A stretch of DNA of 49,318 bases, taken from the NCBI GenBank assembly GCA_025201845.1, contig MU604033.1, positions 9,385 to 58,702 of the forward strand, written 5' to 3'. Position 1 is the first letter of the stretch, and each line of letters starts with the position of its first letter. The position numbers were made by a program, and so were the translations under genes. This DNA comes from Martensiomyces pterosporus. Its lineage: Eukaryota; Kickxellomycota; Kickxellomycetes; Kickxellales; Kickxellaceae. The notes beneath the pieces are model-generated. The model saw nothing but the letters and a program-made list of their open reading frames with translations. It was not told the origin of the DNA and did no database searches. Positions 3,560-45,463 of this stretch are shown here, piece by piece.

Positions 3560-5974
3560 TCACCTGGCGGCTTTGGGGGCGTACAGGCACAGGGCGTCGT
3601 AGATCTCGGCGTTCGCAGCATCCGCGGCCATCTGGTTCTTGAACACGGCCAGCTTCAGCGAGTCGCACGTAAACCTCGCGCGGTAGTTCGAGTGAATCGC
3701 CCTGCCCATTCCCACGATAACCATCAGGTCTGCGCCCTGGCAGTGTCTAACCAGCCGCTCGTCCAGCTTCCTCAGATCCAAGCACGGCCCACCGCTTCCC
3801 GTCCCGCAGACCTCCAGCCTCCTTTCGCTGACGGCCATCGATATGATCGAGTCCAGCTTGGCTGCGCGCCTGACGATGTCGGCCAGCTCGCGCTCGGTCA
3901 CATCGTTCAAGGCCGGCCTCGAGTTGGCAGCCAATACGACGTGCGTGTTGGTGGCCACAAGGTATCTTGCAAGCGGGAGAACGCCCAGACACACGTCGGC
4001 GCCGCTGTTGTCCACAAAGATAACCGCCCTCTGGTACCCCTGCCGCTCGCCGTTTAGCAGCGGGCCGATAAACTCGTCTGCGTTGTTGAAGCGGCTAGGG
4101 CGGTTGACCTTGTCTCTCGCCTGGTCAAAGTTCAGGTTGCCGTCGGCCAGCATGTCTCTCAGCGACGTCGAGCCCCAGTCGAACATGTTGCCAGCCAGCA
4201 CGTTGTGCAGCAGGGTGCGCAGCCTCTCGTGCTCGTCGCTGATGGCATCGGTCTGCGCAATGGCGTTTGGCAGCGCTTCGAGTGCATCGTCAGTCTCTCG
4301 CCTCTTGACCGACGCAAAAATGTCCTCCAGCCCCACCTCGTGCAGGCACTGCTCGCGCAGCCCCAGCAGCGTGCGCACAGACATCGGCCCGTATGCGTGC
4401 GGGCGCTCGCGCAGCCTCCTCAAGTGCTTCAGGTACAGCGCCACGAAGCTCTCCATCTTGACTCTGGTATCCCGGCCACACGACAGCGTGCCGTTCTCCG
4501 CCAAATCCAGCAGCCCGTGGGTGTTCTTCTCCATGGCGGAGATCCAGTACTCCTGCTGCTTCAGATCCTTTGACAGATCCACGGTGTCTGGCTGGTATGG
4601 TGTCTGCTGCGTGTTGATCAGCTGGGGCAGCGACAGGAGCTGGGACGACTGGCGGTCAAGCATGCCCAGCGAGCTAACCGCCTCGTCGGCAATGGTCTCT
4701 GTGATCGAAAAGTTCTCGGTAAACGAGTACGCCTTGTGTCTGCGCACGCGTCTCCCTCCTGCATCCTTGTCGCTTGCCAAACCAGCGCCGCTAGACGGCG
4801 ACACGCATGGGGAGGCACCAGGATCCGACGCCATGACAAAGGCACCAGTGGCGCCCAAAAAGCCCTCGTGGCGGAGGAACAGCGCACGCATCTCGCCCTT
4901 CGACCAGAAGTTGATGGCATACGACAGCGTGTGCATGGTCAGCGGGTGGCCGCGAATGAAGTACCCGCCAAAGTAGATTCTCTTGATCCCGTGCAGCTGC
5001 GCATTCAGATATGCGATCTGACCAATGTTGTTGCTGACCATATACAGCAGCGACCGGGCAATGTCTGCGTCGTCAAACTGCTTGTCGAGGGACTTGCGGT
5101 ACACGCCCGCCATCGTGGCCGCAATATTCGTCGCCTTCAGGCCGATCTTGTCGTAATTGGTGCCGTAGATATCGCCGACCATCATGTCGACCTTTGTGTT
5201 GTCGCCCGTTTTCGTCATGTCGAGCATCTCGTCGAACGACCTGACGCCCGTCAGCAGGTTCAAGAGCCCCCACAAGGTGCCGCCTCCAAGCGATGTCCCG
5301 CTGATCCGCTCGTGCTGGCCCTCGCCCGTGACCTTGATGATGCTCACGCCCGACCCGATGTTAACCAGCATATAGGGAAACATCTCGTCTGTGGTGGGGT
5401 TCTCGAACTGCATCGGCGCGTTCTCCGAGTATGTAAACACCTCGTCCGTGACCTCGCGAATGAGGAAGTTCAGCCCGGTGGTCAGACTCTCCATCTCGTC
5501 CTCGACCTCGATCTTCACTCCCAGCTCCCTGCCCAGCAGCTCGCGGAACCTGTGCGCGCCGCCGCCCGTCGCCCTAATAACCGGCCCCCTCGCTTCCTCG
5601 TTTGCGCCATTCGGTCTCTCCCACTCAGCCTCGCTTGTCTCGGCGCTGCTGCTTTCCTGCACTTGGACCAGCGGTGGCTCGGTGTCCTGCTCTGAATCCT
5701 CGCTTTTCTCGACGGTCTGCGTGGTGAGGAGGGTGCGTATGAACGCCACGCACTTTTCGACGTTGTCTGTCTCGAATGCGGTGAAGTGAAGCCGCCCGCC
5801 TTGGTCGTGCCCGCCGGATGTCGTCAAGTACACGACCTTGGCCAGGGACCCGCCAATGTCCACGGCTACCTTCTGGACACGCCCGGTCTGGTTCGGCAAG
5901 AGGATATCGCTGGCGTCGCCGCGCTGCAGGCCGTCGATGACGGCGCCCGACGAATTGATGTTGCCAAACATCAT
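3560..5974 (-). CDS. PANK4-like pantothenate kinase / DUF89 phosphatase fusion
   Basis: A single-exon 804-residue protein starting MMFGNINSSG. The N-terminal half is a type II pantothenate kinase: VAVDIGGSLAKVVYL (about 36-50), a TGGGAHRF loop, VEDEMESLTTGLNFL, MLVNIGSGVSIIKV, and RISGTSLGGGTLWGLLNLLTG followed by the conserved SKGEMRALFLRHEGFLGA segment. The C-terminal part is a DUF89 damage-control phosphatase with FVDNSGADVCLGVLPLARYL, a LAANSRPALNDVT block and GMGRAIHSNYRARFTCDSLK. This is the architecture of animal PANK4 and plant PANK2. Vertebrate PANK4 lost the catalytic Glu and Arg. Here the Glu of the DEM motif and the Arg of ERISGTSLGGG appear retained, so both CoA-pathway activities (pantothenate phosphorylation, and hydrolysis of phosphopantetheine or its damaged forms) are plausible. 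The length is close to human PANK4. It is cytosolic by default, as no targeting signal is seen. Confidence 0.93.
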   Translation of the reverse strand: MMFGNINSSGAVIDGLQRGDASDILLPNQTGRVQKVAVDIGGSLAKVVYLTTSGGHDQGGRLHFTAFETDNVEKCVAFIRTLLTTQTVEKSEDSEQDTEPPLVQVQESSSAETSEAEWERPNGANEEARGPVIRATGGGAHRFRELLGRELGVKIEVEDEMESLTTGLNFLIREVTDEVFTYSENAPMQFENPTTDEMFPYMLVNIGSGVSIIKVTGEGQHERISGTSLGGGTLWGLLNLLTGVRSFDEMLDMTKTGDNTKVDMMVGDIYGTNYDKIGLKATNIAATMAGVYRKSLDKQFDDADIARSLLYMVSNNIGQIAYLNAQLHGIKRIYFGGYFIRGHPLTMHTLSYAINFWSKGEMRALFLRHEGFLGATGAFVMASDPGASPCVSPSSGAGLASDKDAGGRRVRRHKAYSFTENFSITETIADEAVSSLGMLDRQSSQLLSLPQLINTQQTPYQPDTVDLSKDLKQQEYWISAMEKNTHGLLDLAENGTLSCGRDTRVKMESFVALYLKHLRRLRERPHAYGPMSVRTLLGLREQCLHEVGLEDIFASVKRRETDDALEALPNAIAQTDAISDEHERLRTLLHNVLAGNMFDWGSTSLRDMLADGNLNFDQARDKVNRPSRFNNADEFIGPLLNGERQGYQRAVIFVDNSGADVCLGVLPLARYLVATNTHVVLAANSRPALNDVTERELADIVRRAAKLDSIISMAVSERRLEVCGTGSGGPCLDLRKLDERLVRHCQGADLMVIVGMGRAIHSNYRARFTCDSLKLAVFKNQMAADAANAEIYDALCLYAPKAAR

Positions 5975-6201
5975 TCTTTTGTTGTTATTGCTGCCAAGCG
6001 CGTGCGTGGGGATCGGGGGATGCGTAGAGAGGGAGTGGATGGATATTACAAGTGATGGCTGCTAGCAAAAATAATGGAGTAGAGAGGAAAAGCGAGCCTT
6101 GCTGCTGCACACTAAATCAAAGGGGACGAAAAATAAATATTGGGGGGGGGGGAGTGTGAGTATGTGTGGAGAAGAGAGGAGGAGAGAACGCCGACGTGGA
6201 G

Positions 6202-6732: not shown

Positions 6733-6959
6733 GGCCATCTGGCTGGCATGCGTGCATCCAACATGTCACGTGCACAGCGTCCATGCCCCACCAACCACAG
6801 CACCGAAGAGCCGCTGCTTGGCGCGAGCCTTGAAAGGGAAGGCGTGAGGTAAGCGAGGGCGCTGGGGCCCTGCCCTCTTTTGTTCAGTACTCCCCACACT
6901 TGGATTTTTCTCTCTAGCAGCTACTGCTTTCCTTCACGTCAGATTCGAACCAAACGGAA

Positions 6960-8381
6960 ATGGGCGTCGTTCTAGGCTGCATGTCCAGCCAATTCTTCTC
7001 GTGTCTGGCCTCCCTCGGGTGCTCCTGCTGCTGCGCCGCCTGCAAGAGCATCAAGCTCACAGGGTCCATAGGCACGCGGCTCTCCTACGCGGGCATGTTC
7101 CTCCTCAATTCCTCCATCGCCTACGCAATGACCACCAGCTGGGGGATTGACCTGGTCAAACGCATATCATGGGGCTTCATATCGCTCAAATGCCCCGAGG
7201 GCGTGTGCTACGGGACGCTGGCCGTGCACCGAATGTGCTTCTCGCTCAGCCTGTGGCACCTCATTCTTGGCGCCCTCACCATGGGCGTCGTCGACAGCAG
7301 AAACCCGCGCGCAAAGGTGCAGAACAGCCTGTGGGGTATCAAGTTTGTCGGGTGGGTGGTGCTGGCTGTGCTGTCGTTCCTTATTCCCAGCGGGTTCTTC
7401 GAGTTCTACAGCAAGTACATTGCCATGTTCGGAGCAGCGATTTTCTTGCTGATTCAGCTGGTGCTGCTTGTGGACTTTGCATACAATCTTGCAGAGGCCT
7501 GCATTGACAGGTGGGAGGACACCGGACGCCCGCTGTGGAGGAACCTTCTGGTGAGCGGCACCGTTGTTATGTACCTGGCGTTTGCGGCGATGACTGTGGT
7601 GGACTACGTGTTCTTTGCAGCGGAGGGATGCGGCCGCAACCAGTTCTTCATCACGGCCAACATGCTCCTCTGCATCGTCGTGTCAGTCATTGCCATCCAC
7701 CCTCTTGTGCAGGAAGCCAATCTGAAGTCGGGCCTGGCACAGGCAGGCATGGTCACCGCGTATGCCACGTACCTGGTCACCAGCGCACTAGCTGGATCCC
7801 CACCCGGCGATGCGGAGAAAGGGGAGCCCGTGTGCAACCCGCTGGCGAAGATGGCGGGTGCCAGAGCCACAATGGCGGTCGTGGGCGCGTTCTTCACCAT
7901 TGGCGCCATCTGCTACAGCACCACTAATGCGGCGACAAAGAGCAGCACCCTGATACGCAGCAGCAATAACAGCGACTACGAGCCCCTGTCGACTGAGGAA
8001 TCGGCTGTGCCACTTACGCAGCCGTCGAATGCCCAGCTGAGGCAGAACGCGCTGCGTGATGCTGTGGCTAGTGGTGCGTTGCCAGCGTCAGCGCTGGATT
8101 CAGCTGCGGAGGAAGAGGGGGAAGAGGACGGTGAGGATGACGAGAGGTTTGGCGTGCAGTATAGCTACACGTTCTTCCACTTCGTCTTCTGCTTGGCGTC
8201 AATGTATGCTGCCATGCTGCTGACCAACTGGAACAGCATCGACTCGAACGACAGCGTCATTATTATTGGAAGAAGCAAGTCGGCTGTCTGGGTCAAGGTT
8301 GTCACCAGCTGGCTGTGCATTCTCCTGTACTCGTGGACGCTGGTCGGCCCAGTGGTGCTCCCTGACCGCGAGTGGTCTTGA
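6960..8381 (+). CDS. TMS1: Serine incorporator family membrane protein (Tms1)
   Basis: A single exon of 473 residues, the normal length for SERINC/Tms1. The start (MGVVLGCMSSQFFSCLASLG) has the Cys-rich first segment CSCCCAACKSIK, followed by about ten hydrophobic segments, including GTRLSYAGMFLLNSSIAYAM, RMCFSLSLWHLILGALTMGV, NSLWGIKFVGWVVLAVLSFL and the C-terminal pair FFHFVFCLASMYAAMLLTNW and VWVKVVTSWLCILLYSWTLV. The cytosolic loop before the last pair is acidic (EEEGEEDGEDDE). Family members sit in endomembranes or the plasma membrane and act as lipid scramblases or serine-lipid synthesis factors; the fungal role is poorly defined. It is convergent with the downstream HOOK-CTL gene, with 149 bp between stops. 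Confidence 0.95.
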   Translation: MGVVLGCMSSQFFSCLASLGCSCCCAACKSIKLTGSIGTRLSYAGMFLLNSSIAYAMTTSWGIDLVKRISWGFISLKCPEGVCYGTLAVHRMCFSLSLWHLILGALTMGVVDSRNPRAKVQNSLWGIKFVGWVVLAVLSFLIPSGFFEFYSKYIAMFGAAIFLLIQLVLLVDFAYNLAEACIDRWEDTGRPLWRNLLVSGTVVMYLAFAAMTVVDYVFFAAEGCGRNQFFITANMLLCIVVSVIAIHPLVQEANLKSGLAQAGMVTAYATYLVTSALAGSPPGDAEKGEPVCNPLAKMAGARATMAVVGAFFTIGAICYSTTNAATKSSTLIRSSNNSDYEPLSTEESAVPLTQPSNAQLRQNALRDAVASGALPASALDSAAEEEGEEDGEDDERFGVQYSYTFFHFVFCLASMYAAMLLTNWNSIDSNDSVIIIGRSKSAVWVKVVTSWLCILLYSWTLVGPVVLPDREWS

Positions 8382-8530: not shown

Positions 8531-11053
8531 CTATGCGAAGGCCATGGCTTCGGCGACCTTTATGGAATGGCACGAGTCGACCTCCAGGTCGATGGCATAG
8601 CACACAACCAGTGCCTCCACGGTGCACGACAGCACATGCGTGGTAAGCTGCAGGAGGGCGAACGGCAGTGCGCTTCCCGCAACAGCAACCAGCGCCGAGT
8701 GGACCGACAGCACATCGACCGCCTTCACGCCCAGCGCGTATCCAAAGACCACCGACACAAGGAGGGCATAGCAAGTCATCGACGACTTGATCAGCGAAAC
8801 AACCGGCGAATGCAGCAGGTGGTGCTTGCGCAGGAGCCTAGTGACGCTGAGCGACGATTCAAAGAACCCCTTTCCGGTAAACGCCGCATACACAGCTGAG
8901 TAGCTGTTCCAGCTCTCCACAAAGTAAATGGGCCGGCCAACAAGCAGCGACACGAGGGAAATGGGGATGAAGCGCAGCAGCCTGACCATCCAGCGCAGCA
9001 GCAGCTCTGCCAGATGCAGCGATTTGGAGATAAGCAGGAGTGTGGCAGACACAACCACCGTGCCGAACTGGCGTGTGAGCGCCGAGATCACCGATGCCTG
9101 GAGCGTCTGCAGTGCCGGCGGCTCCTGCGGGTCGTGGCGGTGAAAGTACCACTGGCAAACCACCGACGACACGACCATGCGCAGGATCTGCACAAACACC
9201 CCCGATGCCCACGCAAACGTCGCGACCATATACACGGGCAGCGCCCAGTAATGCCCTGAGCTCAACCACGCAGCCGCTCCACTCTTTCCGGCGCTATGCG
9301 CAGTAAGGCTCTGAACAAGCGGCAGCCGCGAAGCGAATATTCCCGAAGTGATGGTGAACACGCCGTAGAACGCAAGCAGGAGGACCGAGAATGCGTATAC
9401 CTCCTTGTTGTCCACCAAGACGTCGCAGGACAGCCTGATGATGTCCACACTCCGCTCAATATCCTGCCTGCGCTGCGAGATCGACCACACAAAGCGGATG
9501 GCGAGTACCAGGGAAATGCCGATAACAATTGCGGTTCTGACGCGGTACCCAACCAGGTCCTCTACTCCTGGGATCCTGAATATCTGAGTGCCCGCCCATA
9601 CCGCAATGGCGGCTCCAACAACAGGCACGCCCAGAGTGGTCAGCCAGACGACCTTGCGCGTTTGGTACCGCAAGATCTGGATCCACACGACACTCAGGAC
9701 GGCAGACGCAATGGATGCCAGAGATACTTGAAGCAGGGCATCAGCCATGTCGTAAAAGTCCTTGAAATAAGGCGAGCGCTCCGAGGGTATCTTTGTCGAC
9801 AGGAGCAGGTAGCACCCAACAAGGACGTAGAGGAGCAGGTTGACGACAAAGAGGTAGCTAGTGACTGAGTGCGGTCCAGTGTACCCGACTGAGACGACGT
9901 CCTGGCCGTACTGGTCGAGATCCTGGCTGAATTCCGAGACATACGAGTCTGTGTCGCTGTCCCCGTCTCCCTCTTCGACTTCGCTGTCACTTGGAACGAG
10001 GCCAACCATGTCCCTAGCTTCGCTGTATCCGTCCGTCGATTCGATTGTGTCAATAGACGCTGCGCTGTCAGATGGATGCAGTATAGCAGGCTCGTGTGTA
10101 AATGACCGTAGTGCTCCTGAGCCTGTGAATGAGGCACTCAGCAAGGCAGCATTCTCCGGCTCGGCCTGCTGGAAATCGCCTAGCAGGGAGTGGTGGTCGG
10201 GGAACGACGAATAGGCCGATTTGAACTGCTGGAACGAAGTCTGGACACTAGACGCGCTGTCGTTGGAGACATCATACAGCGGCACACGCGGTTTCCGCTC
10301 CCTACTACTATGCGGGCTGTTGTTGTTGTTGTTGTTGCTCGAGCTGCCCTGCCCAACCGACGCCGCCTTGCCTGGCGAGTCCCCACTCTGAATGTGCACG
10401 TCGCTGTTCACGTCAGCATGGCTAATGATACTGCTTCCCTCCATGCCAACCCCCCGTCTCTGCAGCTCCTGCTGCTCGCCATTGATATCCACAGCGCCCT
10501 CCCACATATTCTCTACACCTCTCTGCAATTCAGCCTTTGTGGCATCGTCCAGTACCTCATATATGCTCCTGGCGCCATTACGGTCACTCAGTAGTGTGAC
10601 GGCAACCACAAGCACAAGGAGCCTCCACAGATCGTCAAACGGCGCAATGGCCAGGGTTGCGACGCCCGGAACGTAGTCACGCACCAGCTGCCTGCCAAAC
10701 CCTTGCTCAAAGTACCGCAACAAGAGGCGGGCGAGCTGCGCCAGAGCATCCAGGTTGGGCTCGCCTGGGTGGCCGGGGAGCACGATTGACGCGGAGGCGA
10801 AGTAGTCGGGGTCGGCTTTTGTGACAACCTCAATCAATATGCGCGCATCTACCAGGCTGCCAGTATCGGCCACATCCTCGCCAGACAGGTTGGAAAGCTA
10901 CACACACGCAGGGTATCGAATGCACCGTGTGCCTGTGTTAGTAAGCGCTGGTGTGCTGCTGGCGCTGGGATTAGGACAGAAATGCCCGCAGCCACTGCCG
11001 GTACTTACCCAGGACAGGCAGGCTTCTCGAAATGGCTGTTCTCTATACGACAT
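8531..11053 (-). CDS. HOOK-domain / choline-transporter-like (Pns1/CTL) fusion protein
   Basis: Two exons: 11009-11053 (ATG plus 14 codons) and 8531-10897. They are separated by a 111-nt intron with donor GTAAGT, a CTTACTAAC branch region and a TAG acceptor; phase is kept, giving about 803 residues. The large ORF alone has no ATG near its start. Residues ~10-150 read as a HOOK (calponin-fold) domain: ACLSWLSNL (the W helix), SLVDARILIEVVTKADPDYF, then NLDALAQLARLLLRYFEQGFG, PFDDLWRLLVLVVAV and VLDDATKAELQRGVENM. Residues ~165-350 are a disordered Ser/Asn/Asp-rich linker ending in an acidic stretch. From ~358 there are about ten membrane segments with CTL-family marks: FVQILRMVVSSVVCQWYFHR, SVISALTRQFGTVVVSATLL, WNSYSAVYAAFTGKGFFESS and the terminal VEALVVCYAIDLEVDS. 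CTL proteins are plasma- or vacuolar-membrane proteins of uncertain substrate. The fusion is continuous, with no internal stop. Confidence 0.85.
10898..11008 (-). other. Predicted intron 1 of the HOOK-CTL gene
   Basis: On the minus strand the donor is TGG|GTAAGTACC, a TTACTAAC branch-like sequence lies about 35-45 nt before the end, and the acceptor is GTGTGTGTAG|CTTTCC. Splicing joins 15 codons in phase 0 to the long ORF. It supplies an ATG and the first helix of the HOOK domain, two independent reasons to believe it. Confidence 0.85.
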
Positions 11054-11708: not shown

Positions 11709-14098
11709 ATGCGCGACGACATTCGCATCGTTCTCGTTGGCGATGGTACGTTGCTTTGGCTGGGCGAATCAACAAAAAGACCGTGGAGGCATACGGCAAT
11801 TGCGGAGCAGCAAAGCTGGCGCCTTTTTCTGACTGCCAGGCACCGAGGATTCGTACTAACTCTGCCTCGCCGCTTTAATGCATTCAAACTGTAGATGGAG
11901 TCGGCAAAAGCACATTGGTTACAGCGCTTATTAAGGAAACGTTTGTCGTAAATGTAAGCAGCAATAACGCAGGGCCTTGGCGCACTTGGATAAGCGCCCA
12001 TGCTATCTCTTGCTGGCAGTGATTTTCCGCCCGCTGAGCCATGGAAGAAAAAAACACAGCAGCCAGTAGTGGCATGTGCCTGTGCGTAAAGTGGAAGAGA
12101 CCCTTTCTGTTTGGAACACCGCACTGAGCCCTGCGCTTGCCTTTTTTTTTTTGTCCTGTAGGTTCAATCGGTTGTTCCTGAGGTGACTATTCCGCCAGAG
12201 GTGACACCAGAAAACGTCACCACACACATCATAGACACATCAAGTAAGTGCAGCCATTGCAATTGGAGGCCACAGGGAGCACAGCTGGCAAGGACGCATG
12301 CTAATGCCCCCCCCCCTCATTCAATTCTGTTGTAGCAAAGGCGGAAGACCAGGAAATACTGGAAACAGAGCTGCGCAAGGCAAACGTGGTATGTATAGTC
12401 TATGCCGTTGACGATCGGAGCAGCTTCCAGCGGGTGCACGAGCATTGGCTGTCGATGCTGCGCCTGCAGGGCATCAATCTGCCGGTGATACTGGTTGGCA
12501 ACAAAGTGGACATGCGCGACGAGGACAACGGCCACGGGAACACGGTTCTTGAGGAGGAGGTGGTGCCAATCATGAACGAGTACCGCGAGATCGAGATCTG
12601 CGTGGAATGCTCGGCAAAGGCGCTTCTCAATGTCTCGGAGCTGTTCTACTTTGCGCAAAAGGCTGTGCTGCACCCCACGCGTCCCCTCTACGATGCGCGC
12701 GACCATATGATGAAGCCAAGGTGCACAGAAGCCCTTGTGCGGATCTTCCGTCTGTGCGACATGGATGGCGACGGGATCTTGAACGACAATGAGCTCAACG
12801 AGTTCCAGAGAAAGTGCTTCAATACGCCATTGCAGCAGCGCGAGCTGGAGGGCGTCAAGGAGATTGTCAAGGCTAGCCGGCCCGACGGCGTCACCGAAGG
12901 CGGGCTTAATGTTGAGGGCTTCCTGTACCTCCACTTGCTGTTCATTCAGCGTGGGCGGGTGGAGACCACATGGATGGTGCTGAGGCGCTTCGGGTATGGC
13001 GATGACCTGAGCTTGCGGGAGGACTACCTGTGTCCCGAGTTTGATGTTCCGGCTGACTGCTGTGTTGAGCTCAGTCCTAATGGGTATGCGTTCCTCACGG
13101 AGATCTTCAAGAGATACGACGCGGACGGCGACAGCGCCTTCTGCCCCGAGGAGCTGGAGAATATATTCAGCCTGTCGCCTGGAATCCCCTGGAAACGCAG
13201 CAAGTTCCCGCAGTCCACAGTGGCCAACGCAGCGGGATACGTGACGCTGGAGGGATGGCTGGCACAGTGGAGCATGACCACGCTTCTGGACCACAAGCAG
13301 ACGCTGGCGTATTTGGCGTATTTTGGGTTTCCGGGCGATATCCGCGACGGAATTCGACTGGTAGGGAGGGGCAGCGGCCAGAGCGGCTTGCGGAAGCGGA
13401 AGAAGGGCAAGCTGCAGCGCAACGTGTTCCTTTGCTACGTGGTTGGTGCCACGGGGTCTGGCAAGACGTCGCTTATCAGAGCGTTTGCCAAGAAGCAGTT
13501 TTCGGACGAGTACTCGCCGACTTTGAGGTCCACGACGACGGTCAATTCGGTCGACGTCAAGGGATCGGAGAAGTACCTTGTGATGCAGGAGTTTGGGCCG
13601 TACGACACTAGTGTGCTGCAGAGCAGGCGGCAGCTGGAGTGCTGCGACCTGCTGGTGATGGTGTATGACTCGAGCGACCCGAACTCGTTCTCGTACTTGA
13701 GCAACCTGCGCAAGAACTACTCGCTGGACAACGTGCCGATGATATTTGTTGCAACCAAAAGCGACTTGGATTACGTCGAGCAGCGGGGCGAGCAGCCGCC
13801 GGATATCTACTGCCGAGAGCTCAAGCTCAATGCTCCGGTGTATGTGTCGGTGAAGGACGGGCAGACGGCGAGCGTGTTCCAGCGGATGGCCGCCATTACA
13901 AGGAACCCGCCGTCGGCCACCCCTGCCCTGCTGCTGTCGAGGCCGCAGGCGTGGTCGGTGACAAAGATCGTCGGCGTCACGGCGCTGGCGGGTGTGGGAT
14001 TGATTTCGACGTTTGTGGCGTACCATGCAATGAAGTACTGGTGGCACAGCATAACCCACTCAAGATCATCACCCGCCACTGCCAGAAAAGAGCTCTAG
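11709..14098 (+). CDS. GEM1: Mitochondrial Rho GTPase Miro/Gem1
   Basis: Four exons: 11709-11745, 11895-11953, 12162-12243 and 12336-14098, with GT-AG borders and phases that close to 646 residues. The N-terminal GTPase has its P-loop GDDGVGKS (residues ~11-18), which is split by intron 1, a switch region IIDTSTKAEDQE, and NKVD and ECSAKA guanine-specificity motifs. Two EF-hands follow: DMDGDGILNDNE (about 202-213) and DADGDSAFCPEE (about 320-331). The C-terminal GTPase has P-loop GATGSGKTS (about 429). A tail anchor, IVGVTALAGVGLISTFVAYH (about 603-625), precedes a short basic end. This is the complete Gem1/Miro architecture: an outer-mitochondrial-membrane GTPase that acts in mitochondrial inheritance and ER-mitochondria contacts and, in animals, links mitochondria to motors. 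It is divergent from the HOOK-CTL gene. Confidence 0.97.
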
Positions 14099-41347: not shown

Positions 41348-44300
41348 TCAAAGAGATGTTGTCACGGTGAGTGATGTGGCATGAACAAGGAATACAGGGG
41401 GCAGGCCGCGTGCAAGGGCATCGATTCCCTCCAAATACTCCATTGTCTTTTGCTCCGACTCCGACGTGCCCAGCTCCGGCGCCTGCAATGTGGTGAATAT
41501 CAGCGCTGTAGACGCCTGGCTCTCGCGGCGGATCATCTCGTTGAGGATACGGTTCTGAGTGCTTATCGGCATGTCGTTAAACTCGGTCAGCGGCTGCTGC
41601 TCCTGTTCCTGCTGCTCCTGCTGCCCACTACTGCTAAGCTCCGGTGGCGGTGGGCTGACACGAGGGTTGCCGCTCTCGAGCGGGCTAGAGCAAACCAGTG
41701 CCCCTCCAGCTCCCTGCTCAACTGCTTGTTCGGATGTTTGTGACGTAGCTGCTGCAAGTGCACGGCTGTAAAAGTTTGAGAGTGCCATCGATCCGTCTGA
41801 GGACCGTCTTGGCACCAGGCTGATATCATGATCGGTATTCCCCAGCGGGATATTTCTAATGCGTACTCGACTATGCTCCCCTGGCTCGATATCAACGCTG
41901 GTTCTTCTACCCCACAGCCCGCGAGGAAGCAGAGATTTCCTTCTGCTGCCCGGGTTTCCCTCGGAGATTGTCGCATACCTACCAAGCGACGCCGTGTTGG
42001 CATTGGCGCCTCGGCCAGAAGAGTGCGAGTCAATGCCAGTTCCGCCAGCAATATCTGATAAAAAGTCTGACTCGGATTCTGTGTCGGAGTCGCTGCTGCC
42101 CTGGTCCAGCCGTGTTGATTCGTAGCGCAAGGGCATTGGCAAATTGACTTTCATACTGAATCCAAGCTGCGGCGAAGCCTCGGTTGGAGCGACTGCGCTC
42201 GGCCTCGCAAACGAGACGCCCTGCGATGACTCTGGCTTTGCGGTCGCGTTTGGCGCGGCTGATGGCCCTGGTGTTCTCTGGTCGCCATGGTCAGCAACAG
42301 CATTACTTTGGTATGTGGTGCTGGTGCTGGTGCTGGTGCCGCTGACCACTGCCTCGTCGTAGGCAGAGATGCCAGCCCCACGGAGATAGTGAACATGGAG
42401 CTCTGCCATCACTCGAAGATCGCGCAGCAATTTGGCCACACGACGGGTCTCCTCTTCTACGTCACTCTGGTCCTCAACAAAACACATGACGCGGAGCTTG
42501 TAGCGGTGACTCCAGTAGGGGACCAGGTGCAGCACGGTTCCCAGCTGCAGCACCATCACGTAGGAGTCAAAATTGGTCAAGTATGCGCGCTGCCCAGAGT
42601 CGCTAGTAGTTGTTGCTGTTCCGATCTGAATAGGCCACAAGTCGATGTATTTTTTCTGTTGCTGTCCGCTGCAGTCCATCATATCGGTCTTGGGTAGCGG
42701 CCATGCCAAACTGCTGTGAGGATGTGGCGGCGTGGGATCATGCAAGGCCGGCATGGTCAGACCGAGCTTAGAGAACCCGTATGCGATTCCAACAGCCTTG
42801 CCCATCAGCAGCACATCCTCGATGATGCGCAGGTAGGCGACTGGAGAAATGGGTGTGTTGAGCTGAATGTTGTCTGTGGGCAGCAGCACATCGTCGATCG
42901 AGTCGCCGTGGTCCTCCAGGCTGCCGTCAAAGGTACGCTCAGGGTCGCTCTCACGTCTCTGGTCGAGCTTGAGGAACCCCATCACCACAATGTTTGGACG
43001 CATTCCACCCAGCCCAGCGCCAAACACGATGCTACGTGCGCCGGCGTCTTCACTTTTGTCGATTGCAAGATTCAAAAACGCCTTGACGCGAGCAACATCA
43101 ATCAAGCGCATCCACGCAGCCTCTTGCTGCTTCAGCTCGGGCAGCAGCTCGTAGAAGCTGCCCTTGATGACGTGCCCGATGACGTACAGCCCGCCTTTCT
43201 TCAGCGCGTTGCAGAATCGGATCAGATGGAACGAGCTGCGCGGGTTGTGCACGAGCAGTAGGATCTGAGGTCTCCAGAACTTGACGTGGTCTTTGCGCAG
43301 ATCGAGTCGGAGCATGTACTTGCGGCACTGGTGGTAAATGAGGCTCTGCGTGACATCGCCCCAAGCCTTGGGCGGGCACGTGTAGTGCACGTACAGAAAC
43401 AGCACGACGACAACAGCAGTGGATATCAGCGCAGAGATCGGGTCGACGAATATCATCACGCCAAAGCACCCAGCTGCGCCAAGGAAGGCTGTCCATGCCT
43501 TGAAGTAGTGGAATGTCGGCCGGAAATTGACAGATGCCGCAAGCTTCAGCACCAAGCATGCAAGGTTGACAAAGCCAAACATGATCAGGTTGAACATGGT
43601 CGTGTATGGCGCAACTGCATTGATGTCGCCGGCAAACAGCGCGAGCTGCGAAATGGCATAGGTGATGACAATCGACCGGACCGGGTTGTCGTTGCGGTCG
43701 GTCTTTTTGAGCGGCTTGAGAAAGGCAAACAGGTCGTCCTTAGCAATTGCCTGCAGGATGCTTGCAGACGACAGAACGCCGCTCAGCGTGCTAGTAACAC
43801 TTGTGGTGATGGCGCCGATAGGCACAATCAATGGCACGAGGTTGATTTCCTGCAGGACGTTAAAGTTGTCGCGAAGCGTGCTGCGCCGTGTGGTCGAGCC
43901 AAGGGATATGGCGATTGTGAGATAGAGGATAAATGTGATCAAAACGGCCCACAGCGTGCCCTTGGGTATCGATTTGCTGGGCTTGCGGAGCGCTGAGGAC
44001 ATGGATGCGCCAGCCATGATGCCGACGCAGGCAGGGAACAAGACACCCAGCACAGTGCCCAGAGTCTCTGAAGGGCGGCCTTCGGAGATGGGCGACAGGT
44101 CGGGCCACAGATTCTCTTTGAATGTGTCCATGCTCCAACCGGTGTAGTGGATCGCCTTTTCCTCATTGACAAACGGGGCCCGGAAGGCAAAGGATGCGAG
44201 AATCATTGCTGTTGCGGCAATGATAGGCGTTGACAAGACGGTAGACGCCTTTGCAAACACCTGGGCACCCGTCAGGCACACTACCGTGCAAAAGATGAGC

Positions 44301-45082
44301 AGGATAGAGTTGTACAGAACGCACCACCACTTGCCCTCGGGGAACGTATGCGTGATGTCGCCAATCGTGCTCCCAAAGTTGTTCAGCAGCGGCTCAACGA
44401 AAGCAACGTCGTTCAGCACACCAGCCAGCAGCGTGCCTGCATAGAACATTAGCCCTATGCTGCCGCCAAATTCAGGGCCAAGCGACCGCGAGAGCATGTA
44501 GTAGGGTCCGCCACCCTTGACTGTGCCGTTTGTGGAGATGGCAGAGATGGACAGCGTTGTCATTGTGGTGATAAGATATCCGCCGACGAAGCTGCCGATC
44601 GTTCCCATGATACCTACTTGGCTCAGGAAGTAGCCCATGCGCACAAACACCAATATGCCCCAGATGCTGAGCATCACTGGCAAGAAAACGCCGTCCCAAG
44701 TGCCTAGCTTGTGAGGTGCATTTGCTTGTATATCGCCAATGCTTCTTCGGCGCCTGCGAGACCCAGGGCATGCAGCACCATCCTCGCCGCGACCAGTGTG
44801 GTCCGGTGATATGCGGCTGTGATGCTGCTGCCGATGAACGCTGCTTCCAAAATCCTCGGTTGCAGCATATCTGCTACTGGGTGCAGCGGTGGCATCATGC
44901 AAGTCCTCTGCTTTGCCTGTGCCATGCCTTAGCAATGCTGCTGTCTCGTCAATTTGGTCGGCTGGCTTGCTGTCGTTTGCCGATTCATCAGCCGAGGCGT
45001 CGTTCTCTGTCGAGCCAACGCGGGCCAGCTGGCGCTCTAAATCGTCTATATGTGTGCCAGCACGGCTGAGAAAGCGGGGCAT
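41348..45082 (-). CDS. VHC1: SLC12-type cation-chloride cotransporter (Vhc1-like)
   Basis: A single long exon. The open frame extends to 45187 but only from a GTG; the ATG at 45080-45082 (MPRFLSRAGTHIDDLERQLA) gives 1244 residues. After a ~130-residue acidic/Ser-rich N-terminus, the amino-acid-permease-type core begins at LGTWDGVFLPVMLSIWGILV and includes TNGTVKGGGPYYMLSRSLGP (the conserved helix-3 region), FPACVGIMAGASMSSALRKP and ten further segments up to ALISTAVVVVLFLYVHYTCP. The large cytosolic C-terminal domain follows (KAWGDVTQSLIYHQCRKYML, FWRPQILLLVHNP), with a long Ser/Gln-rich insertion (about 960-1170), ending in the family-like GLPPVFLVHATSLTVTTSL. Yeast Vhc1 is a vacuolar K-Cl cotransporter. 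Human SLC12A9 is the other close type, so the symbol is tentative. It converges with RGD1, with 125 bp between stops. Confidence 0.9.
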   Translation of the reverse strand: MPRFLSRAGTHIDDLERQLARVGSTENDASADESANDSKPADQIDETAALLRHGTGKAEDLHDATAAPSSRYAATEDFGSSVHRQQHHSRISPDHTGRGEDGAACPGSRRRRRSIGDIQANAPHKLGTWDGVFLPVMLSIWGILVFVRMGYFLSQVGIMGTIGSFVGGYLITTMTTLSISAISTNGTVKGGGPYYMLSRSLGPEFGGSIGLMFYAGTLLAGVLNDVAFVEPLLNNFGSTIGDITHTFPEGKWWCVLYNSILLIFCTVVCLTGAQVFAKASTVLSTPIIAATAMILASFAFRAPFVNEEKAIHYTGWSMDTFKENLWPDLSPISEGRPSETLGTVLGVLFPACVGIMAGASMSSALRKPSKSIPKGTLWAVLITFILYLTIAISLGSTTRRSTLRDNFNVLQEINLVPLIVPIGAITTSVTSTLSGVLSSASILQAIAKDDLFAFLKPLKKTDRNDNPVRSIVITYAISQLALFAGDINAVAPYTTMFNLIMFGFVNLACLVLKLAASVNFRPTFHYFKAWTAFLGAAGCFGVMIFVDPISALISTAVVVVLFLYVHYTCPPKAWGDVTQSLIYHQCRKYMLRLDLRKDHVKFWRPQILLLVHNPRSSFHLIRFCNALKKGGLYVIGHVIKGSFYELLPELKQQEAAWMRLIDVARVKAFLNLAIDKSEDAGARSIVFGAGLGGMRPNIVVMGFLKLDQRRESDPERTFDGSLEDHGDSIDDVLLPTDNIQLNTPISPVAYLRIIEDVLLMGKAVGIAYGFSKLGLTMPALHDPTPPHPHSSLAWPLPKTDMMDCSGQQQKKYIDLWPIQIGTATTTSDSGQRAYLTNFDSYVMVLQLGTVLHLVPYWSHRYKLRVMCFVEDQSDVEEETRRVAKLLRDLRVMAELHVHYLRGAGISAYDEAVVSGTSTSTSTTYQSNAVADHGDQRTPGPSAAPNATAKPESSQGVSFARPSAVAPTEASPQLGFSMKVNLPMPLRYESTRLDQGSSDSDTESESDFLSDIAGGTGIDSHSSGRGANANTASLGRYATISEGNPGSRRKSLLPRGLWGRRTSVDIEPGEHSRVRIRNIPLGNTDHDISLVPRRSSDGSMALSNFYSRALAAATSQTSEQAVEQGAGGALVCSSPLESGNPRVSPPPPELSSSGQQEQQEQEQQPLTEFNDMPISTQNRILNEMIRRESQASTALIFTTLQAPELGTSESEQKTMEYLEGIDALARGLPPVFLVHATSLTVTTSL

Positions 45083-45463
45083 GTGACTGATGCGAATTTG
45101 ACTGCAATGGAAAAGCAAGATGGGTTGGATATACAAGGGTGCAAACGAGCAAGGGAGGAAGGGCAGCAAATAAAGCGGAACCAGCACAGTGTATCAGAGC
45201 TGAACAAGGAGTGTTTGTTTGTGTAATTAATACGTCTTTGGGTTCTAGAGCAGTAGAGCATAGTGTGTCTGCGGCTGCTGCCTGCCGCCTGCTGCCTGCC
45301 GCCCCTCGTCTTGCTGTGTGGAACGCGAGGCGGCGGGAGCGATTCCCCTTCTATTCGAGAGTAACGTGAAACAATGTTTGGGTATACAGCCGCTCTCATC
45401 CCCCTTCTCCCTCCCTTCTAGGGCTATCTGCTGTGGTTTACAGACTAGGGCTACAAGAAATCC
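45083..45463. other. Intergenic region, cotransporter promoter / MRM2 3' end
   Basis: 381 bp between tandem minus-strand genes, with a GCTGCCTGCC repeat near 45277-45302. No gene seen. Confidence 0.5.

Follow-up and report, generated by a model that had tools for sequence, protein, structure and literature searches.

Can a dynein-binding head form part of a membrane protein with many passes, and what would it do there? Soluble adaptors are dynein's usual route to membranes. The question is raised by a gene on the minus strand (8531-11053) of the window, the whole stretch of 49,318 nucleotides analysed here, which is part of contig C105 in a host genome of 17.4 Mb. The initial annotation, made from the letters of the DNA, had read in this gene one spliced frame of about 803 codons that joins a HOOK dynein-adaptor-like domain to a choline-transporter-like (CTL) membrane protein. 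The gene and its product are laid out as follows.

11009..11053, minus strand (read 11053-11009): exon 1, start codon and first HOOK-domain helix, residues 1-15, with the helix-1 Trp last
11008-10898, minus strand: intron, GTAAGT...TAG, phase 0, 111 bases
10897-8531, minus strand: exon 2, residues 16-803 and stop, from the 788-codon open frame and the splice
10493..10897, minus strand: HOOK domain, residues 16-150, from a family profile run against the PDB, Pfam HOOK_N matches to 10 of 18 members and predicted folds
9878..10492, minus strand: linker, residues 151-355, disordered, Ser-rich and acidic, from pLDDT, 37% mean identity and composition
8534..9877, minus strand: CTL/Pns1-type membrane domain, residues 356-803, about 10 long helices (counted by eye)

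The spliced product has 803 residues, and exon 1 contributes MSYREQPFREACLSW. The top database match to the window protein, P0001 (GQ54DRAFT_291933), comes from Martensiomyces pterosporus (Kickxellaceae) and is identical to it, including the join of exons 1 and 2, except that 21 linker residues are missing. The GT...AG intron and the shared join thus support the single spliced frame as read from sequence. In the exon-1 frame the profile of the N-terminal domain (N-domain) also finds a match (E 4.7e-4), and the exon-1 start pattern is present in 18 of 32 family rows, P0001 counted. The residues without a counterpart in P0001 are linker residues 178-198, within 9878-10492. Their absence is probably caused by an extra annotated intron, which may be a prediction artefact because the frame stays open without it. 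A different start occurs in P0024 (Coemansia sp. RSA 720), where an N-terminal extension, residues 1-82, replaces the exon-1 helix, unlike the other family members; perhaps this is a wrongly joined exon.

Upstream of its start, the HOOK-CTL gene is divergent from a gene for a Miro/Gem1-like GTPase (11709-14098, plus strand), in which the frame at 12305-14095 carries Ras, EF-hand-associated and Roc-type domains. With the Miro start set by eye, the two starts lie about 650 bases apart, and one promoter region may therefore serve two proteins that are anchored in membranes and possibly linked to motors. A Serinc-family gene (6918-8381, plus strand) and the HOOK-CTL gene face each other tail to tail, with about 150 bases between them. 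Elsewhere in the window, a pantothenate kinase (Fumble) and an ARMT1-like damage-control phosphatase domain share one frame at 3560-6061 (minus strand), an arrangement that occurs in other eukaryotes, and a cation-chloride cotransporter-like protein (AA_permease and SLC12) is encoded at 41348-45193 (minus strand) in a single frame of 1281 codons.

The N-terminal domain is recognized through its family. A Pfam search with the whole window protein gave no HOOK match at E<=1, and residues 16-181, compared as a single sequence with the PDB, gave seven matches at E<=10, none of them HOOK. The family profile, by contrast, reached only three PDB sequences at E<=10, namely Hook3 twice and Hook1 (best E 1.2e-4), and Pfam HOOK_N, with a best E of 7e-4, matched 10 of 18 N-domains but not that of the window protein, which is one of the eight left unmatched. 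The identity between profile consensus and Hook3 is 31/140 (22%), and the N-domain profile matches the host's ordinary HOOK only weakly (E 0.096-0.12). The predicted structure is a calponin-homology-like fold with an extra last helix, in agreement with HOOK and with the calponin-like fold that the initial annotation expected for residues 1-150. Judged by profile and predicted fold, the similarity is HOOK-specific and the domain belongs to the HOOK family. The HOOK assignment thus stands at the level of the family, although the window sequence by itself remains unmatched.

The identity of the membrane domain is more direct. Pfam Choline_transpo (PF04515) matches residues 476-787 (8582-9517) with an E of 7.3e-31, in line with the CTL motifs noted earlier in the last 440 or so residues, and both the profile and the predicted fold place the domain in CTL/SLC44. 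With HOOK recognized by family profile and fold and Choline_transpo by Pfam, the proposed fusion is present in this protein. No Pfam match other than Choline_transpo was obtained at E<=1, and a C-terminal FTS/FHIP-binding region is absent by this search. Fungal CTLs are reported to split into a Ctl1 clade and a Pns1 clade, and Ctl1 of Schizosaccharomyces pombe is described as binding Atg9 and shuttling between the Golgi and the autophagosome assembly site (PMC3738441). Because a separate host gene in C41 clearly matches yeast PNS1 (E 7.4e-79), the HOOK-CTL gene would lie outside the Pns1 clade, on best-match evidence, and we infer by elimination that its membrane domain is a Ctl1-like fungal CTL. 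The full-length profile of the HOOK-CTL family reached no CTL chain at E<=1, 9f63 included.

Between the two domains lies a linker that had been described as disordered and acidic, and both properties are borne out: pLDDT is below 50 over residues 150-318 of P0001, and linker residues 152-333 include 29 acidic and 10 basic residues among 182. Two stretches stand out by columns in which at least 80% of 30 rows agree.

10205..10267, minus strand: linker motif 1, S.DS..S..TS...F.SA.SS, residues 226-246, conserved columns
9905..9946, minus strand: linker motif 2, SYVSEFSQDL..YG, residues 333-346, conserved, with a short helix predicted

As Atg8-binding motifs these were considered and dropped, no fitting pattern being seen by eye. 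Structure prediction, which is not a dedicated coiled-coil program, places no helix between residues 162 and 316 of P0001, nor does it show a coiled coil following the HOOK domain, so that the protein is predicted to lack a coiled coil, as first proposed.

Is this architecture peculiar to one genome? Protein searches (E<=1e-3 and E<=1e-5) gathered a family of 38 proteins, including P0001, the window's own gene. In 32 of them the N-domain match is 109 profile positions or longer, and in one (P0034) it is partial. Five models are without it: four have their start within the linker, and P0035 starts only at the domain's final few residues, as would be expected of partial or truncated models. PF04515 is also found in 31 of the 32 carriers of the N-domain, the exception (P0036) being a partial record of 459 residues. 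Named sources are Coemansia, Dipsacomyces, Linderina, Kickxella and Martensiomyces. Measured against the window protein, identity averages 63% in the N-domain (30 rows) and 66% in the CTL region, compared with 37% in the linker (31 rows each). Five genera, all of the Kickxellaceae, soil fungi that have had little study, therefore share a conserved fusion in which an acidic, disordered linker joins the N-terminal HOOK domain to a polytopic CTL domain, and the search in related fungi that had been suggested thus found the same architecture. Protein searches at E<=1e-3, 1e-5 and 10 returned the HOOK-CTL family alone, by a method that requires shared exact words; the one at E<=10, run with a CTL stretch and aimed at other fungi, gave 455 candidates and 32 matches, all of them family members already found. 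The apparent restriction to Kickxellaceae is uninformative, because these word-based searches missed CTL proteins that certainly exist elsewhere.

Several known systems resemble parts of this protein. HOOK adaptors (human HOOK1-3, fungal HookA/Hok1; HOOK_N PF19047, HOOK PF05622) have, judged by profile and fold, an N-terminal HOOK domain in common with it, and the positions of Hook3 Gln147 and Ile154 are mostly kept in the HOOK-CTL family; they carry coiled coils and a C-terminal cargo/FHIP region, whereas the HOOK-CTL protein has neither and ends in a CTL membrane domain instead. ZYG-12 of Caenorhabditis elegans is also a transmembrane protein that bears a HOOK domain, and it is said to bind the dynein light intermediate chain (LIC), but it is described as a KASH protein of the outer nuclear membrane with a long coiled coil, in place of a roughly 10-pass CTL anchor without one (PMC10071310). 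KASH5, reported as a transmembrane activating adaptor, is likewise a membrane protein recruiting dynein via LIC, and differs in its EF-hand in place of HOOK, its long coiled coil and its location in the nuclear envelope (PMC10071310). The Rab7-interacting lysosomal protein RILP is reported to bind LIC helix 1 and to recruit dynein without a long coiled coil, with RILP homology domains where the HOOK-CTL protein has HOOK (PMC10071310). CTLs of the Ctl1 clade share the CTL family with the present protein, which is non-Pns1 by elimination, and S. pombe Ctl1 is the autophagy partner of Atg9; its published description, as far as drawn on here, makes no mention of a HOOK domain (PMC3738441). In the literature searched, which takes in few subscription journals, no description was found of a HOOK domain fused to a choline transporter, nor of one joined to a many-pass protein that resembles a solute carrier and lacks a coiled coil. 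The view that no HOOK-CTL fusion had been described agrees with this search, but the HOOK-CTL protein is not a new category, because a transmembrane HOOK precedent exists in ZYG-12.

The host genome contains the machinery with which such a protein could work. A frame of 4937 codons encodes the dynein heavy chain, and a LIC gene is present, whose C-terminal stretch, NEDLTSFFQNLLGRK, resembles by eye LIC helix 1 with its two conserved Phe residues, the element reported to bind the Hook domain (PMC5841405). A separate, ordinary full-length HOOK gene and an ATG9 gene are also found. For the one ordinary HOOK that was found, the genome has two RAI16/FHIP-like genes, L010 (C16, E 3.4e-61) and L011 (C132, E 4.2e-22), perhaps a sign that the host has more than a single cargo link of FHIP type. 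The FTS-Hook-FHIP complex is said, in the title of one paper, to mediate the distribution of AP-4 and its cargo ATG9A.

How might the fusion act? A direct link between a compartment and dynein had been proposed for it, and we infer that the protein could provide one. The N-terminus and HOOK head would be cytosolic, by analogy with the prediction for Ctl1 (PMC3738441), and the head, leashed by some 200 flexible residues, would hold LIC at the CTL-bearing membrane. Dynein would then be concentrated on, or kept near, the membrane carrying the protein, and the motor might be handed to a separate full-length HOOK-FHIP adaptor. A long coiled coil is general among activating adaptors, while RILP recruits dynein without one (PMC10071310), which favours a tether; lacking a coiled coil, the HOOK-CTL protein should tether or recruit rather than activate motility alone. 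That the conserved fusion concentrates or holds dynein at its membrane in this manner is a tentative reading, whose chances we put just short of even. A more specific form, in which a Ctl1-type protein travels with Atg9 and its LIC-binding HOOK head lets autophagy-related vesicles recruit dynein directly with no FHIP bridge, is unlikely.

These readings depend on the contact between HOOK and LIC. LIC binding by human Hook3 is reported to depend critically on Gln147 and Ile154, and mutation of Hook2 at the equivalent positions abrogated binding of LIC1 (PMC6400558); Hook3 M140D likewise showed no LIC1 binding (PMC5841405). The Lys and Val that had been noted at the first two positions are indeed found in M. 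pterosporus.

10535..10537, minus strand: K136, aligned with Hook3 Gln147
10514..10516, minus strand: V143, aligned with Hook3 Ile154

The leading rival explanation accepts the HOOK domain as genuine but holds that it has changed partners: LIC binding would be gone, and in its place the domain would bind FHIP or a different trafficking protein, microtubules, or the CTL domain of its own chain. Some folds of the HOOK and CH types do bind other partners. At the position of Hook3 Met140, 25 of 31 family rows have Asp or Glu, in a register that hangs on an adjacent one-residue gap, and the host's ordinary HOOK keeps the Met140, Gln and Ile positions, in a by-eye reading of a weak alignment. Four of the 31 rows, M. 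pterosporus included, have Lys (three rows) or Arg (one row) where Hook3 has Gln147; the protein has no coiled coil for dynactin; and the densely conserved EPNLDALAQLARLLLRYFEQG and PFDDLWRLLVLVVSVTLLSERN (consensus) lie outside the LIC-binding last helix. However, Gln is retained in 27 of the 31 rows, and the Ile154 position is hydrophobic in all 32 (Ile 23, Met 6, Val 3). Given the 22% identity to Hook3, retention of both would be roughly a 1-in-20 coincidence, on the assumption of independent positions and with related sequences counted repeatedly. Invariant residues of the last helix (L139 and G142 in 31/31, W147 in 32/32 rows) also fit a retained LIC groove, although helix packing could explain them as well. 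As the family mostly keeps Gln and Ile, the loss or change of LIC binding suspected from Lys and Val cannot be deduced from one species; the acidic residue at the Met140 position is a better ground for doubt. Read from the alignment, the LIC-contact signature is mixed, with two determinants kept in most members and Met140 not, and a change of partner has a substantial chance, though somewhat below even.

According to another explanation, the N-domain has no cytoskeletal role and caps the CTL domain, either to regulate it or as a structural part, and the near-equal pace at which the two domains change (63% and 66% identity) would fit this. Yet some 200 mostly disordered, fast-changing linker residues separate them, as suits a domain that reaches freely, and the fold is specifically HOOK rather than generic; a cap therefore seems improbable. 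That two genes were merged by annotation or assembly, as models lacking the N-domain (5/38) and a gene structure read from genomic sequence alone might suggest, is scarcely credible given that domain, linker and CTL region lie in a single uninterrupted frame of 788 codons and recur in five genera.

If the HOOK-CTL protein does tether or recruit dynein, a HOOK head within a many-pass membrane protein, maintained across a family of fungi, would attach the motor in a new manner, and the fusion would raise the question of what a HOOK domain does without a coiled coil. Should the membrane part be Ctl1-like, the fusion also points to a compartment, since S. pombe Ctl1 is reported to bind Atg9 (PMC3738441). 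If the autophagy-related form were true, it would parallel the mammalian HOOK-FHIP-AP-4 route for ATG9A, and nature would have recorded in the fusion that HOOK is functionally linked to the Ctl1/Atg9 compartment.
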